From contig JAFUKD010000011.1 in assembly GCA_017467905.1 (NCBI GenBank), positions 1 through 63,557 of the forward strand: 63,557 nt of DNA, in the 5' to 3' direction. This DNA comes from Phascolarctobacterium sp. (GTDB taxonomy: Bacteria > Bacillota > Negativicutes > Acidaminococcales > Acidaminococcaceae). The notes below the pieces were generated by a model that was not told the DNA's origin, made no database searches, and worked only from the letters and a program-made list of their open reading frames with translations. This document shows, one piece after another, positions 55,241 through 63,557 of this stretch. Positions within the stretch are counted from its first letter, which is position 1. The number at the start of each line of letters is the position of its first letter. A program made the translations under genes and the position numbers.

Positions 55241-56251
55241 TCACCTGCTCAGCTTGTTATAAACATCAAGAGCACTTTGCAAAACTACAACCGCCAGGTT
55301 CGCACCTGTACCCTCGCCCAAACGCATACCTGCATCAACGATGGGTTGCAGCTGTAAAATCTCTAACATCTTTTTATGAGAAATATCACTGCTCAAATGG
55401 GAAACCAACATATATTTTGCACATTCCGGATACAAACCGTAAGCAAGAAGCGCCGCCGCAGTAGCGTTCACCCCATCAACCATAGTGGGAACGCGGCGCT
55501 TAGCTCCGGCAATAATCATACCTGCAAGTCCTGCGTGGTCGTAGCCTCCCACCTTGCACAAAACATCCATAGCGTCGCCAAGCTTAGGCTTATTCTTGGC
55601 TAAACCATCAATAACAACCTGGCGCTTAATCTTCATACGCTCATCATTGATACCACTGCCACGTCCAACGGTCAGCTCCGGGTCAATACCTAAAAAGCCG
55701 GAAACGATTGCAGAAGTAGAAGTAGTATTGCCAATACCCATCTCCGCAGTTTCCAAAAGATTGTAGCCTTTATCAATACACTCATTTGCAACGCGCATGC
55801 CAACCTGCAAAGCTTCTTCCGCCTGCTGCTGCGTCATGGCAGGGCCTTGGGTAAAATCTTCTGTTCCCCAAGCCACCTTGCACTGGTGTACCTTCTGCAG
55901 ATGACTTAAATCGAAGGTAGTGCCAACATCCACAACAAAAACATCTGCACCTGAGTGGCGCGCCATTACATTTGCCCCTGCGGTCTCACGCATATAACCG
56001 TTAATCATCTGCATAGTAACTTCCTGGGGGTAAGCGCTTACGCCATATTTAGCAATGCCGTGGTCGCCACACATCAAAAGCATAGCAGTCTTAATCTTTT
56101 CCGGCAAAGCCTTACCGGTCATGGCAGCGTACTTAACCACCATATCTTCCAGCTTGCCCAAGCTGCCAGCAGGCTTGTCCATATTCGCCCAGCCTGCCCT
56201 AACCTTATCCGCCATCTCTAAATCAAGGGGCGGTATCATTATCTTTTCCAT
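55241..56251 (-). CDS. cobT: Nicotinate-nucleotide-dimethylbenzimidazole phosphoribosyltransferase
   Basis: 336 residues. Core motifs are present: MDKPAGSLGKLEDMVVKYAA, LMCGDHGIAKYGVSAYPQEV, EMGIGNTTSTSAI, VGRGSGINDE and the catalytic Glu in RLGEGTGANLAV. It ends earlier than typical CobT, missing the last EMATFAEAGV-like helix that the short paralogue retains. It activates the lower ligand base (DMB or another, possibly phenolic). It starts three bases after cobU. Confidence 0.93.
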   Translation of the reverse strand: MEKIMIPPLDLEMADKVRAGWANMDKPAGSLGKLEDMVVKYAAMTGKALPEKIKTAMLLMCGDHGIAKYGVSAYPQEVTMQMINGYMRETAGANVMARHSGADVFVVDVGTTFDLSHLQKVHQCKVAWGTEDFTQGPAMTQQQAEEALQVGMRVANECIDKGYNLLETAEMGIGNTTSTSAIVSGFLGIDPELTVGRGSGINDERMKIKRQVVIDGLAKNKPKLGDAMDVLCKVGGYDHAGLAGMIIAGAKRRVPTMVDGVNATAAALLAYGLYPECAKYMLVSHLSSDISHKKMLEILQLQPIVDAGMRLGEGTGANLAVVVLQSALDVYNKLSR

Positions 56252-56254
56252 TAT

Positions 56255-56833
56255 TTATTCCTCATCTTCAAACTTAAACGCAAACCTTTTCATATCAATG
56301 GTTTGCCCTGCCACGCAGTAAAAAACATTCTCGCAGGCATCAGCAACCTTTTGGTTTACCCAGCCGGCAAGGTCACGGTACTCGCGTGCCATCACATTAT
56401 CAGGCACAATGCCGGCGCCAACCTCGTTACTTACGAACACAACCAGCTTGCCGCACTTGCGTGCTGCTTCCAAAACCTTGTCCACCTCGCCAAGCACGAA
56501 GGCAACTCTTTCTTCAAAGCTTCCTTCAATAGCGGTCTTGCCATACATCTGATTAGTCATATACAGCGTCATACAGTCAAACAGCACCGCACCGGTCTCT
56601 TCACCTAAAACAGCAAAGACCTCTTCCGCATGATAAGGCGCCTCGTGGTTCACCCACCGCCCGTCATTACGACGTTCACGATGCAAACGCACACGCTCCG
56701 CCATCTCATCATCTAAAATTTCTGCAGTGGCAATGTAATCGCACTTGGGAGAATAGTGCAACACATAACGCTCAGCAAAGGTGCTCTTACCACTGCGAGC
56801 ACCACCGGTAACTAAAACTAATTTGTTACTCAT
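56255..56833 (-). CDS. cobU: Adenosylcobinamide kinase / guanylyltransferase
   Basis: 192 residues from ATG at 56833, set by GGGAGG eight bases upstream; an extension into the riboswitch terminator is rejected. P loop GGARSGKSTFAERYV, HRERRNDGRWVNHEAP with the guanylylated His, FDCMTLYMTNQM and VSNEVGAGIVPDNVMAREYR. It is the first gene of the riboswitch-controlled operon. Confidence 0.96.
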   Translation of the reverse strand: MSNKLVLVTGGARSGKSTFAERYVLHYSPKCDYIATAEILDDEMAERVRLHRERRNDGRWVNHEAPYHAEEVFAVLGEETGAVLFDCMTLYMTNQMYGKTAIEGSFEERVAFVLGEVDKVLEAARKCGKLVVFVSNEVGAGIVPDNVMAREYRDLAGWVNQKVADACENVFYCVAGQTIDMKRFAFKFEDEE

Positions 56834-56850
56834 TTTATAAACCTCCCTTC

Positions 56851-56882
56851 TAAAAGAAAAACCTCCCACTACACGCGGGAGG
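56851..56882 (-). terminator. Riboswitch expression-platform terminator before cobU
   Basis: CCTCCC pairs with GGGAGG and is followed on the minus strand by TTTTTCTTTTA, just before the cobU ribosome site. Ligand binding would favour this terminator. Confidence 0.85.
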
Positions 56883-56894
56883 AATAATTCTAAA

Positions 56895-57100
56895 ATACAA
56901 AAACCAGCCTATCTCCCGTAGGCCTCACGGTTTCAGTGATAGGCAGGTCTCCTGGCTTAGCTTCATCACCTAACGCGCCTTCCCAGTTTTAACCAGTGAC
57001 ATAATTGCGTAGGCTCCACTTACAGTAGCGGGAAACTGCTCCGGATTCACACCGGCATTCCCTTTTAAGCACCAACCTCGATTGGCGCACCCATCAAAAG
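56895..57100 (-). promoter_or_regulatory. Cobalamin riboswitch
   Basis: On the minus strand the conserved core is visible: GGTGTGAATCCGGAGCAG, CCGCTACTGTAAG and the B12 box AAGCCAGGAGACCTGCC. It lies directly upstream of the terminator and cobU, so corrinoids should repress the operon. Confidence 0.95.
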
Positions 57101-57120
57101 TTTTCCAAGTTAATACATTC

Positions 57121-58994: not shown

Positions 58995-59029
58995 ACAGAA
59001 AGAAAGCTGCCCCACGAAAGGCAGCTTGG
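58995..59029 (-). terminator. Terminator downstream of the Cas9-like gene
   Basis: AAGCTGCC pairs with GGCAGCTT around TTTCGTGG; on the minus strand TTCTTTCTGT follows. It separates the Cas9-like transcript from the rpsB promoter. Confidence 0.75.
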
Positions 59030-59035
59030 GAATGT

Positions 59036-59110
59036 AAGTTCATCAATATCCAACAAGGGACTAAAATTAATAAATACAAAATTAAGCATAAGCTTATCAA
59101 CATCCAACAG
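59036..59110 (-). repeat. Two imperfect 21-bp direct repeats, 54 bases apart, after the Cas9-like gene
   Basis: Minus-strand TGTTGGATRTTGATRARCTTA occurs at 59090-59110 and 59036-59056 (18 of 21 identical). The period is 54 bases (18 codons). In the Cas9 frame the two copies read LLDVDKL and LLDIDEL just beyond the TGA stop. Confidence 0.6.
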
Positions 59111-59119
59111 AGCTTTAAA

Positions 59120-61477
59120 TCATTTTCCTTCAAATTCCGAAAGCATTTTAAAGGGAATACTGCTCTTTACTTCCCCTCCAAGCTTACCAAGAACATCAAC
59201 ACTATACTTTTTAAAAACATCCTTCTGAGTTACATAGATGGCAACATCATTTATTTCCCTACTATTTCTTACATTAAGCAGATTTCTGGTAATGGCTTTT
59301 ACATTTCGGTAATAGCCTTCAAATTTTTCATTACCCTTTCTATCAAAAATTTTAATGTAATCATTTTGGAAAAGGTACATCAAATGTTTCTTATAACCTT
59401 CTGGATAATCAACAGCTAAATATAACTTCTTATTACGCTTAACTAAATCCACATAACGGATTCCACGCAACGCAGTTCTGCCTTCCCTATCCTTATAAAG
59501 CTCAACGCAATAATACTTATTGGCACTCAAAACAGTTTTATTGCCCAAATTGTCTTCCTTTATAATAGAACTGCTCTTACGCTTAGTTTTAGGTAAAGGA
59601 TGATGTTCCACCACTTCGCCTTTAAACTTTTTATTCTGTTTATAAGAAATATGTGACGAAGCAAAATCTTTGCACAACCCACGATACTCGCCTAAATTTG
59701 TAAATACATCTTCCAAATTGGAGGTAATGCTCTTTTTAAAGATGTGGACATGCCTTGCCTCATCACCTGTAAACAAAAGATGACTTTCCAAATAATTTGC
59801 TATATACCTACTAATGTACCTACCGTATTTAAAATCCTGCTTCTTCCATTCCTCATAAGGCTTATTATCAGCAGCACGTTTAAGCCTTAAAAGCCTTTGG
59901 CGCTCCTTGTAACTGCGGCCAAAATTTTCATGAATTCCTACATTAATATATGTAGGTGAACCATACAGGCGAATTATTGCATTTAGCACCTTACGCATCT
60001 CATTAAGCGCTTTAATTAAAACTACGTTATAAGCAAAATCTTCAACAACCTCTTTTTCCATAACAGGTAAAAGTATTTGCTTTTGTTTTAGTTCATTACC
60101 TGCGTGCAACTTCCGCAAACTTCTTGCCTTAAAATCACCATAAGCTTCACCATCACAAAACGCCTTAATGGCATCTACCATATAACGCTCGCATACACTT
60201 ACTGTGCCGGCAAAACTCTTTCCGGATAAATATTTGCACAGGCTTTCATTCCAGCCATTCTGCTTCAACAACGTTTCCCTACGTTTAATAGTAATATTTT
60301 CCGTAAGCAGCTTACACAAGCCATTCAATTTAGAAGGATGCTCCAAATCAAAATGGTTTTCTGCAATAAGCTTTTCATAATCATAACCACTGGCAAGCAG
60401 GGCAGCTTTCAACACTCGCAAGGTCTTTAAAGAATCAGCAAGCTTCTTTTCAGCTTTACCGTTCCTAACCATCTCTAAATCATAGCGTTTTAAAATAGCC
60501 TGTACATCTTTTTCAGTAACCTTAGCATTCTGCAAGGCAAATTCTAAAATCTCCTTGCCTGCTTCAATTGGCAAGATACTCTTACCACTCACCACATCAA
60601 CAAAGGAAAACTGCCCCAACCAATTAACCAGAGCAAAAACATCCGCAATAATCGTGCTTCTAAAAGCACGCTTTTCTTCCTTATAATATATGCACTTGCC
60701 AATAGAATCTAAGAACCCCATAAACTTACGAGTCTTATCATTTTCATCACCGGGACCAGTTTCAAAATCCCTTTGAGCAAAAACAATCCTATCGCACAAA
60801 AAATTTATGTTTTGATTTGTAAGCTGAGGATAAAACTCTTGTTGCTTATGTAAAATAGCAAGCAGTTCCTTCCTTTGATAAGAACGCTTAATCAAAATAT
60901 TTCTATCACCAGTTTTGTGATTATGGTAATCAGGATAATCCGTTTCAGTCTTAAATGCTTCATCATTTAAAATCATATCTGCAACACTGCGATAATTCCC
61001 CAGGCTAAACCGTCTTTCAAATTCCGCCAAACCTGCTTCCACAATCCCAGCATCCTTATACTTATTATCATCATAAAATTCTTGGTAACCTCGATGATTA
61101 CAAATATGAATAATGCAGGCAGCAAGCTCCTCCACAGAAAGCTTTTCATCCAAACCCTTTACCCTAATGGCAAAAATATTTTGAGCACCATTCTTTTCTT
61201 GCCAAGCTTTCAACCTGTTGCAATCTACAAGCTCAAGCTTTTGCAAATAATTCTTAACCCGTTCCTTACGATGCGCCTTGCGACGCAACACCCTTCTAAC
61301 ATTACGGAACATTCTTCTATCTTGATTCTTCAACCTTTTATAATCATTGGTCTCACCGGAATCAAACAAACGTAAACCAAAATCTTTAACACAATCACCT
61401 TCAACATTGTTAGAAGTAACAACGAAGCTAATATAACCAATACCAATTTCTAAATTGATACCATATCGTTTATCCAT
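59120..61477 (-). CDS. Cas9 homologue lacking HNH and RuvC catalytic residues (naturally nuclease-dead, orphan)
   Basis: 785 residues from ATG at 61477; GGAGG ends six bases before it, while the ATG two codons earlier abuts the ribosome site. RuvC-I reads YGINLEIGIGYISFVV: Glu10 replaces the catalytic Asp. Arg-rich bridge helix 47-78 (RRMFRNVRRVLRRKAHRKER). REC lobe about 80-485 with the Cas9 blocks RVKGLDEKLSVEELAACIIH, ICNHRG, IVFAQRDFETG and GKCIYYKEEKRAF. RuvC-II (GSPTYINVGIHENFGRSYKE) has Gly514 instead of Glu. Only about 24 residues join it to RYISRYIANYLESHL (553-567), where Cas9 carries HNH. No HHxxDA motif follows. The 650-765 region (SANKYYCVELY, YFQN-like, KKYSVDVLG) matches the II-C WED/PI end. 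Guide and DNA binding may persist without cleavage; function is inferred. It lies 52 bases after rfbB, same strand. Confidence 0.9.
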   Translation of the reverse strand: MDKRYGINLEIGIGYISFVVTSNNVEGDCVKDFGLRLFDSGETNDYKRLKNQDRRMFRNVRRVLRRKAHRKERVKNYLQKLELVDCNRLKAWQEKNGAQNIFAIRVKGLDEKLSVEELAACIIHICNHRGYQEFYDDNKYKDAGIVEAGLAEFERRFSLGNYRSVADMILNDEAFKTETDYPDYHNHKTGDRNILIKRSYQRKELLAILHKQQEFYPQLTNQNINFLCDRIVFAQRDFETGPGDENDKTRKFMGFLDSIGKCIYYKEEKRAFRSTIIADVFALVNWLGQFSFVDVVSGKSILPIEAGKEILEFALQNAKVTEKDVQAILKRYDLEMVRNGKAEKKLADSLKTLRVLKAALLASGYDYEKLIAENHFDLEHPSKLNGLCKLLTENITIKRRETLLKQNGWNESLCKYLSGKSFAGTVSVCERYMVDAIKAFCDGEAYGDFKARSLRKLHAGNELKQKQILLPVMEKEVVEDFAYNVVLIKALNEMRKVLNAIIRLYGSPTYINVGIHENFGRSYKERQRLLRLKRAADNKPYEEWKKQDFKYGRYISRYIANYLESHLLFTGDEARHVHIFKKSITSNLEDVFTNLGEYRGLCKDFASSHISYKQNKKFKGEVVEHHPLPKTKRKSSSIIKEDNLGNKTVLSANKYYCVELYKDREGRTALRGIRYVDLVKRNKKLYLAVDYPEGYKKHLMYLFQNDYIKIFDRKGNEKFEGYYRNVKAITRNLLNVRNSREINDVAIYVTQKDVFKKYSVDVLGKLGGEVKSSIPFKMLSEFEGK

Positions 61478-61529
61478 TGTCATCCTCCAAACTTTGTTGA
61501 TATGTTAATTTGAAAGTGTTAATTTTTAC

Positions 61530-62549
61530 TCACCTATTCCCATACATCTTTTCATAATAATTTTGATACTCACCGCTGATGATGTTCTCCCACCAATCGC
61601 GATTATCCAAATACCATTGAATTGTTTTCTTAATACCATCCGCAAACTTAGTTTCCGGCAACCAACCTAATTCGCTATGAATCTTAGTCGGGTCAATGGC
61701 GTAACGCATGTCATGACCCTTGCGATCAGTGACGTAAGTAATCAAGCTTTCCGGCTTGCCCAGTTCCTTGCAAATAATCTTAACGATATCAATATTGCGC
61801 ATCTCGTTATGACCGCCAATATTATAAACTTCGCCAACTTTGCCTTTATGCAGAATCAAATCAATTGCCTTGCAATGGTCTTCAACATAAAGCCAGTCTC
61901 GCACGTTAATTCCTTCACCGTAAACTGGCAGCGGCTTGTCGTTTAAAGCATTGGCAATCATCAAAGGAATAAGCTTTTCTGGAAAATGGTACGGGCCATA
62001 GTTATTAGAACAGCGGGAGATAGTCACAGGCAAACCATAAGTGCGGTGATAAGCCAACACCAATAAATCTGCACCAGCCTTAGAACTGCTGTAGGGAGAG
62101 CTAGTGTGTATAGGAGTTTCTTCCGTAAAGAACAAGTCCGGTCTATCCAACGGAAGATCACCATAAACTTCGTCAGTAGATACTTGATGGTAACGTTTAA
62201 TGCCAAACTTACGGCAAGCATCCATCAAGACAGCAGTACCCATTACGTTAGTCTGTAAGAAAATTCCAGGGTCTTCAATGGAACGATCAACATGGCTTTC
62301 CGCAGCAAAGTTAACTACGATGTCAGGACGCTCCTCCTCAAAAAGCTGTTCCACTGCCTCGCGGTCACAGATATCTGCCTTCACAAAACGGAAGTTAGGA
62401 GCATCCATCACGCTTGCCAATGTAGAAAGGTTGCCTGCATAAGTAAGCTTATCCAAGCAGATGATGCGATAATCAGGATACTTCGCAAACATATGAAATA
62501 TAAAATTAGAACCTATAAATCCGGCACCGCCGGTAATGATGATTGTCAT
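61530..62549 (-). CDS. rfbB: dTDP-glucose 4,6-dehydratase
   Basis: 339 residues from ATG at 62549 (AGGAG eight bases upstream; a GTG three codons earlier is rejected). NAD-binding ITGGAGFIGSNFIFHM, catalytic STDEVYG and YSSSKAGADLLVLAYHRTYG (YxxxK), and RCSNNYGPYHFPEKLIPLMI. It makes dTDP-4-keto-6-deoxyglucose, a precursor of rhamnose and other deoxysugars. No rfbA, rfbC or rfbD lies in the window; they may be to the right. It sits between the cyclase-like and Cas9-like genes. Confidence 0.96.
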   Translation of the reverse strand: MTIIITGGAGFIGSNFIFHMFAKYPDYRIICLDKLTYAGNLSTLASVMDAPNFRFVKADICDREAVEQLFEEERPDIVVNFAAESHVDRSIEDPGIFLQTNVMGTAVLMDACRKFGIKRYHQVSTDEVYGDLPLDRPDLFFTEETPIHTSSPYSSSKAGADLLVLAYHRTYGLPVTISRCSNNYGPYHFPEKLIPLMIANALNDKPLPVYGEGINVRDWLYVEDHCKAIDLILHKGKVGEVYNIGGHNEMRNIDIVKIICKELGKPESLITYVTDRKGHDMRYAIDPTKIHSELGWLPETKFADGIKKTIQWYLDNRDWWENIISGEYQNYYEKMYGNR

Positions 62550-62560
62550 GTGTACCACTC

Positions 62561-63223
62561 CTAAATTACAGTTTCCTGCAACGCCTCTAATTGCAATTTA
62601 AAAACAGAATCTTCCGCCTCCTTATATTTTCTTTCAAAATCTATAATCTGTTTAGCATTTTCTAAATTCCAATAAAAATAAATATGCTCTTTCCCATTTT
62701 TCTTCAAAACGTGTTTATCAGACAATTTCATGCAAGATTCCTTGAAATTAATATCAGTTTTATCACTATATACGATTCTACATTGTCCTGGTTTTAATCT
62801 ATTGGATTTACTTTCATTATCTAAATATGCATTTAGATACGCATTACCAATAAACATGTTTTTTTCAATACCTTTAAACTCAAATCTTGCATTATATGTA
62901 AAATCACCAAATGCAATTGAAGTGGTCAACATATAATTTTCTTTCAACATATTTATATTTAATTCTCTTATTACACGCAAAAGCTCATTTAGCTTTTCTA
63001 ATATATCATTTTCTTCTTCAGACACACATTGCGATATCAATATTCCACAATCAGATACAAATATCCCTTGTACACTATTACTATGTCGTAAACTTTCATA
63101 CCCATTATTATAAAAACAATCCAAAGCTTTCATTGCTTTTTCTTTAGTATTCATTAATTTCTTAAATCCTGAAATATCTACAAATGCTACAAGTGCTTTC
63201 CCCGAAATATTATTCAAAGGCAT
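62561..63223 (-). CDS. Class III nucleotidyl cyclase-like protein, unknown function
   Basis: 220 residues from ATG at 63223, which shares its A with the upstream TGA; GGAGG lies nine bases before. The fold pattern of class III cyclase domains is visible: ALVAFVDISGFKKLM with Asp16, GIFVSDCGILIS with Asp58 (both metal-binding positions), and TTSIAFGDFTYNARF followed by FIGNAYLNAYLDNES, which matches the G-[DN]-x-V-N-x-A block. The Arg expected three residues after the catalytic Asn position is Asp. Activity is therefore doubtful, and a sensor or pseudo-cyclase is possible. This family call is by eye. Confidence 0.55.
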   Translation of the reverse strand: MPLNNISGKALVAFVDISGFKKLMNTKEKAMKALDCFYNNGYESLRHSNSVQGIFVSDCGILISQCVSEEENDILEKLNELLRVIRELNINMLKENYMLTTSIAFGDFTYNARFEFKGIEKNMFIGNAYLNAYLDNESKSNRLKPGQCRIVYSDKTDINFKESCMKLSDKHVLKKNGKEHIYFYWNLENAKQIIDFERKYKEAEDSVFKLQLEALQETVI

Positions 63224-63557
63224 CACTCATCACCTCCTATACTACCGACATAACCCAAATCAACCACACAGCCACCCCAAGATAGCCCAACACCAAAGCC
63301 AATAGCTAAAACATTTTTGATTTCTTTATCCATATTGGCTTTCATCATATCAGCTATTGCAATCGGGACGCTTGAAGAAACGGTGTTTCCATATTCCTTG
63401 ACATCATTCCAATACGGATAGCCAAGCAAATCACATTTCATCTGCAAAAACTCAAGCATAAATTTATTTGCTTGATGGAATACAAAATAGTCAATATCAC
63501 CTTTAATCAAGTTTGTTTTTACCAAAACTTTTTCTAAAGTATCCGGCACTACTTCGA
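63223..63557 (-). CDS. 3-oxoacyl-ACP synthase III-like (FabH family), C-terminal part, cut by the window edge
   Basis: About 111 residues are visible and the frame is open to the window end. The catalytic His is in DYFVFHQANKFMLEFLQMKC and the Asn in VKEYGNTVSSSVPIAIADMM. The C terminus GFGVGLSWGGCVVDLG is typical of the thiolase fold. Standalone FabH-like proteins in glycan clusters often make acyl groups for modified sugars. It overlaps the cyclase-like gene by one base. Confidence 0.9.
   Translation of the reverse strand, partial: EVVPDTLEKVLVKTNLIKGDIDYFVFHQANKFMLEFLQMKCDLLGYPYWNDVKEYGNTVSSSVPIAIADMMKANMDKEIKNVLAIGFGVGLSWGGCVVDLGYVGSIGGDE

Follow-up and report, generated by a model that had tools for sequence, protein, structure and literature searches.

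This report describes a Cas9 homologue from a Phascolarctobacterium sp. (GenBank assembly GCA_017467905.1) in which the HNH domain and the catalytic residues of RuvC have been lost. Its gene was found on contig JAFUKD010000011.1, of which positions 1 to 63,557 of the forward strand were analysed (63,557 nucleotides; hereafter, the window). The gene is a single open reading frame (ORF) of 787 codons on the minus strand, 59120-61483, followed on the same strand by a miniature CRISPR array. A previous reading of this DNA, made from the letters alone (the sequence-only reading), had counted 785 residues from an ATG at 61477. That start codon exists, but the first ATG of the frame, at 61483, gives 787 residues; the frame is intact, as had been claimed.

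The identification of the product as a Cas9 withstood profile searches. The NCBIfam model cas_Csn1 (TIGR01865) matches residues 8-538 above its curated cut-off (E 5.5e-77), the PADLOC Cas9 profile matches at E 6e-57, and every match in the PDB is a solved Cas9; a Pfam search up to E 1 returned no match. Residues 611-782 align with the nearest active Cas9 (52%), consistent with the II-C-like C-terminal domain that had been proposed. Alignment with full-length relatives places Glu12 at the position of the RuvC-I Asp and Gly516 at that of the RuvC-II Glu (Glu10 and Gly514 in the earlier numbering), and the HHxxDA motif of RuvC-III is missing. The HNH domain is likewise missing, with approximately 27 residues, where about 24 had been estimated, separating RuvC-II from the next conserved helix. 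Because the identical architecture recurs in two paralogues of the same genome and in two orthologues from an independent genome, an assembly error is excluded.

The HNH-less family

The window genome (G000; 1.84 Mb in 41 contigs) contains, besides the window copy (C36), two more HNH-less Cas9 paralogues (58-59% identity): C14, of 812 residues (L008:7027-9465), and C30, of 751 residues (L009:7130-9385). The congeneric Phascolarctobacterium sp. RGIG3958 from roe deer cecum (G003) provides the remaining two of the five members, namely G003a, an orthologue of C36 (91%), and G003b, an orthologue of C30. These orthologues are syntenic, lying next to tsf/rpsB and next to priA/def/fmt (names assigned by reading the translations), and the reading frames of all five genes are open over 751-812 codons. 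No such gene was found in two other congeners examined. Among 380 genomes of the class, HNH-less forms occur only in G000 and G003, the remaining matches at E 1e-60 residing in frames longer than 1000 codons; the protein was not found in the viral contigs, plasmids or phages searched.

In a phylogenetic tree the five proteins constitute one clade (support 100/100), with the full-length Cas9s from G004 and G066 as its sister group. This clade is nested among the II-C Cas9s and is not derived from TnpB (100/100). None of the five genes is flanked by cas1 or cas2, which are present at the G004 and G017 loci. The same losses recur in the homologues, inasmuch as five of five proteins lack HNH and five of five lack the RuvC-III catalytic motif. 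The contention of the sequence-only reading that every nuclease element is altered holds for C36 and G003a, which have lost both the RuvC-I Asp and the RuvC-II Glu, but not for the less degraded paralogues: C30 and G003b retain the RuvC-I Asp and carry Ala for the RuvC-II Glu, while C14 retains both residues together with a vestigial RuvC-III motif (LRAVNA versus HHAADA, with L, R and N replacing H, H and D). With these residues, C14 resembles an evolutionary intermediate in the loss of catalysis, and the order of losses can therefore be studied.

The ratio of nonsynonymous to synonymous substitution rates (dN/dS), estimated by the Nei-Gojobori method for the two orthologue pairs, is 0.21 for C36 and G003a (dS 0.22) and 0.23 for C30 and G003b (dS 0.60). 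Residues 601-787 are among the most conserved parts of the protein, with a dN/dS of 0.09-0.15 between C36 and G003a. By this measure the HNH-less proteins are under purifying selection, and the low ratios and intact frames uphold the view that the window gene is not a decaying pseudogene.

Mini-arrays, guides and tracrRNA

Directly 3' of each of the five genes, on the same strand, lie two degenerate repeats enclosing a single 'spacer' of 14-20 nt; the repeats are related to that of the full-length relatives, whose ordinary spacers are about 30 nt long. In the window, all on the minus strand, repeat 1 (CTCTGTTGGATGTTGATAAGCTTATG, 59087-59112) resembles the 36-nt repeats of those relatives (GTTTTAGTACTCTGTTGGATATTGATAAACTTACAC in G004). 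It is followed by a 19-nt guide, CTTAATTTTGTATTTATTA (59068-59086), whose 3' seed, GTATTTATTA, fits the consensus RTATTTATTW common to the other four HNH-less loci, and by repeat 2 (ATTTTAGTCCCTTGTTGGATATTGATGAACTTACAT, 59032-59067), the predicted CRISPR RNA (crRNA) handle. Beyond repeat 2, a terminator-like hairpin with a T-rich tail (AAGCTGCCTTTCGTGGGGCAGCTT, 59004-59027) agrees with the terminator previously claimed; the guide element between it and the gene had been overlooked.

The guides end in GTATTTATTA at C36 and G003a, in GTATTTATTT at C14 and in ATATTTATTT at C30 and G003b, so that the repeat-proximal end RTATTTATTW is common to all five loci. On account of this shared end, the guide is, as far as the five sequences tell, fixed, unlike adaptive spacers. 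Between C30 and G003b, at a dS of 0.60, 26 of 26 positions are identical in repeat 1, 13 of 14 in the guide and 32 of 35 in repeat 2, compared with about 50% in the 5' and 3' flanks. The terminators of C36 and C14 are nearly identical (29/31), and gene conversion within G000 may for this reason have homogenised the two arrays, in which case C36 and C14 are not fully independent; the shared seed is still supported by G003a, C30 and G003b. The possibility that the seed is the -10 box of a promoter, behind the TTGATA of repeat 1, was ruled out, as that spacing is 13, 18 or 19 nt, whereas the seed always stands equally far from repeat 2.

One gene for the trans-activating CRISPR RNA (tracrRNA) was found in each carrier genome, that of G000 lying upstream of C14 and that of G003 upstream of G003a; the two are 96% identical over 200 nt, and the C14 copy is preceded by what reads as a promoter (TTGACA-17-TAGAAT). 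At each of the five loci, nearly the whole of repeat 2 pairs with the tracrRNA, with computed energies of -45 to -49 kcal/mol (-48.8 kcal/mol for the window repeat against the anti-repeat), compared with -40 kcal/mol for the repeat/tracrRNA duplex of G004 itself. A difference between the species is matched on both strands of the duplex, repeat CCC facing tracrRNA GGG in G000 and repeat CCU facing tracrRNA AGG in G003; C30 bridges this difference via a G-U pair. C36 and C30 thus probably use tracrRNA made in trans, to judge from these complementarities. The proposal that guide loading persists is borne out to the extent that each gene has a mini-array whose repeat pairs with a conserved tracrRNA, the array being kept where the flanks diverge. 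In all of the full-length relatives, two tandem repeat-like elements 40-44 bp apart occur upstream of cas9 (L026:7390-7475, L147, L148, L149, L150 and L151), one of which is the tracrRNA anti-repeat.

Neighbouring genes

A dTDP-glucose 4,6-dehydratase-like gene (61530-62558, minus strand) lies 47 nt upstream of the window gene on the same strand, in the place occupied at G003a by the tracrRNA gene. Genes for surface polysaccharides (dTDP-sugar dehydratase, glycosyltransferase, LicD, UDP-galactopyranose mutase) are located at or near all five loci, a dehydratase remnant being readable at C14. Toxin-antitoxin genes occur at some of the loci, and a DcdV/AvcD-like NTPase-deaminase lies near G003a (L024:13144-15567; PADLOC dCTPase, E 1e-120). 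This neighbourhood, perhaps a region of general insertion, is not evidence of function. G000 also possesses a full-length II-C locus with cas9, cas1, cas2 and an array of 66-bp period, whose repeat is unrelated (L010:8124-13883).

Two further features of these contigs deserve mention. The ends of the C36 and C30 contigs carry nearly the same ketoacyl-synthase-like sequence beside near-identical dTDP-sugar dehydratase genes (window 63223-63557; L009:10482-10801), which suggests that these regions undergo recombination and cause the assembly to break. Elsewhere in the window, a cobalamin riboswitch (RF00174) at 56925-57109 is on the same strand as adjoining genes resembling those of cobalamin biosynthesis (55241-56869).

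Proposed function and its alternatives

The explanation that we favour, and hold to be probable, is that a type II-C Cas9, deprived of both nuclease activities and of its adaptation genes, has been retained as an RNA-guided DNA-binding regulator. Regulatory DNA binding is the most plausible role because the protein is guide-loadable, without nuclease, supplied with a fixed guide, separated from adaptation genes and under selection. The function proposed is transcriptional repression. The gene and its adjacent mini-array would, as their layout indicates, be co-transcribed to the terminator. The single tracrRNA from the C14 locus would pair with repeat 2 of each mini-array, as computed, and RNase III, if type II biology is a guide, would help to free a crRNA with a short fixed guide. 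Cas9, tracrRNA and crRNA together would bind DNA matching the seed beside a protospacer-adjacent motif (PAM), and the nuclease-less complex would remain bound, blocking transcription at a recognised host promoter.

Known biology makes such a scheme feasible. Engineered SpCas9 with HNH or RuvC-III deletions, as in the minimal dCas9 of MISER, still binds DNA and represses (PMC8476515); similar deletions were made here by evolution. A functional parallel is TldR, the TnpB-like nuclease-dead repressors for which guides as short as 6 nt suffice (PMC13418256, which cites Wiegand et al. 2024). Like the present family, TldRs descend from an RNA-guided nuclease, have an adjacent fixed short guide and are under purifying selection, and short-seed promoter repression would be a further likeness. 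In contrast to TldR, the HNH-less family derives from Cas9, employs a dual RNA with the tracrRNA in trans and shows no link here to phage or flagellin genes. Streptococcal long tracrRNA directs Cas9 to the cas promoter through a 9-bp match and, with the scaRNA of Francisella novicida, exemplifies a degenerate repeat-derived RNA that turns Cas9 into a repressor by means of a short match (PMC8730458); there, however, Cas9 stays an immune nuclease, whereas the proteins described here are predicted not to cut and have no adaptive array. The 2025 classification includes phage Cas9s of the II-C2 variant, which are II-C-like with a naturally inactivated RuvC (PMC12669027), but these are phage-encoded and retain an apparently active HNH, while the genes described here are chromosomal and have had HNH deleted. 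With ordinary type II-C Cas9, represented by the full-length relatives G004, G066, G107, G111 and G119, the family shares the RuvC-I segment, bridge helix, REC, RuvC-II segment and C-terminal domain, the dual crRNA:tracrRNA, the repeat family and an array downstream of and co-directional with cas9. It differs in the deletion of HNH and RuvC-III, the lack of cas1 and cas2, and a reduction to two degenerate repeats around one spacer of 14-20 nt, instead of about 30 nt, that is conserved between copies.

A search for targets yielded one candidate of interest. When sites with at least 11 guide-matching bases were screened, the sole intergenic site kept in both carriers was TTGTATTTATTA|TACAGGCA, with a seed match of 12 nt in G000 and 11 nt in G003. 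It separates a Na+/H+ exchanger family gene (PF00999) from a class IV aminotransferase gene (PF01063), inside the spacer of one predicted divergent promoter and directly past the -10 box of the other, and it is mutated, to TCTGTAATTATTA and TCTATTATTATTA, in two congeners that do not have the HNH-less gene. Repression of this divergent promoter (L069:1503-1512) would be expected to leave such a pattern, and it is the best candidate target, with about one chance in four of being correct. Other matches were set aside. The C30 guide matches the purF coding sequence perfectly (14/14), which was dismissed as a coding coincidence; another match, close to the G003b cluster and with an apparently covarying base, was dismissed because it falls in the coding sequence of a glycosyltransferase gene and has a mismatch in its PAM-proximal base; and seed sites in autotransporter-family leaders and beside parS-like sequences are weak, being multi-copy via shared descent. 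The neighbourhoods of the HNH-less cas9 genes gave nothing. In the course of this search, both carriers were seen to encode a large surface-protein family (one member an autotransporter, PF03797) with a highly conserved 5' leader in which a hairpin, GCTTCT..AGAAGC, precedes TTTGTAATAAATAT (L043, L044, L047-L049, L070, L081, L083, L087, L097 and L098). Several parS-like sites (TGTTTCACGTGAAACA) in two genomes have a conserved flank of about 60 nt with TATTTATTTTTA (L058, L059, L075, L084 and L085).

A number of results weigh against a DNA-binding regulator. With up to three mismatches allowed, the 19-20 nt guides match neither G000 nor G003 beyond what chance would give, and the seed itself occurs at chance frequency in G000 (41 matches, 36 for a reversed control). 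The candidate promoter is a post hoc choice, and the chance of one such site is estimated at a few per cent. No PAM was obtained: the spacer of a full-length relative matched nothing viral, and no convincing protospacer in phages emerged from two natural arrays searched whole. At the window gene the neighbouring tracrRNA has been lost, and the gene would rely on a tracrRNA supplied in trans. Finally, an AlphaFold model of the window protein, built from two sequences, was unusable (predicted local distance difference test score, pLDDT, 34).

Could the family simply be a degraded CRISPR-Cas remnant without function? The loss of cas1 and cas2 along with the nuclease, the reduction of the array to two repeats, the absence of a neighbouring tracrRNA at three of the five loci and the restriction of carriers to 2 of 380 genomes would all fit. 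Five open frames of 751-812 codons, dN/dS of about 0.2 in two orthologue pairs, and guide and repeats preserved at dS 0.60 where the flanks are not, with one tracrRNA retained per genome, speak against it; on the evidence of selection and array conservation this reading appears largely refuted, and we give it very little credence. A silencing-type defence, in which, as in type IV-A, the complex would not cut but would repress a promoter motif common among mobile elements, is somewhat less improbable, though still unlikely. The host genome has no long guide match, and one locus stands near a DcdV-like dCTPase gene and some near toxin-antitoxin genes, but a fixed short guide in all copies and the lack of adaptation genes are unlike adaptive defence, and the searched viral contigs, plasmids and phages gave no HNH-less protein.

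The guide might also descend from an ancestral G004-like locus, specifically from its cas9/tracrRNA promoter, making the protein an autoregulator or antagonist that represses such promoters of related II-C systems. The cas9-tracrRNA intergenic regions of G004 and G066 do contain TAATTTGTATTTATTT, which is close to the TAATTTTGTATTTATTA of the C36 guide and has a 10-nt match to the C14 guide. In the carriers, however, the guides do not match the equivalent part of the tracrRNA promoters, and the active Cas9 of G000 uses a different repeat, which leaves this explanation with a slim probability, between those of defence and remnant. We regard as least probable of all an action of the RNA-bound protein on RNA or RNA supply, and not on DNA, as a tracrRNA sponge or in post-transcriptional control. 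That no DNA target could be fixed is in its favour, as is the II-C scaRNA of Neisseria meningitidis, reported as a post-transcriptional regulator (PMC13431127); the strong conservation of the C-terminal region, which contacts the PAM in Cas9, argues against it.

We found no natural Cas9 without HNH in the searchable literature, although subscription papers and most preprints lay outside that search and an earlier report is possible; nuclease-dead RNA-guided regulators derived from TnpB are already known, and active Cas9 can double as a repressor, but, as far as could be seen, no nuclease-dead regulator is known from Cas9. In removing HNH and RuvC-III, evolution has followed a path close to the engineers' route to a minimal dCas9. 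The resulting natural proteins are compact, at 751-812 residues, are predicted to bind without cutting, and are possibly useful for CRISPR interference (CRISPRi). It is an evenly balanced prospect that the nuclease-dead Cas9s of Phascolarctobacterium, of single origin and forming a small paralogous family with a shared tracrRNA and their own guides, represent a new class of natural transcription factors, which would amount to a CRISPRi network native to a gut commensal.
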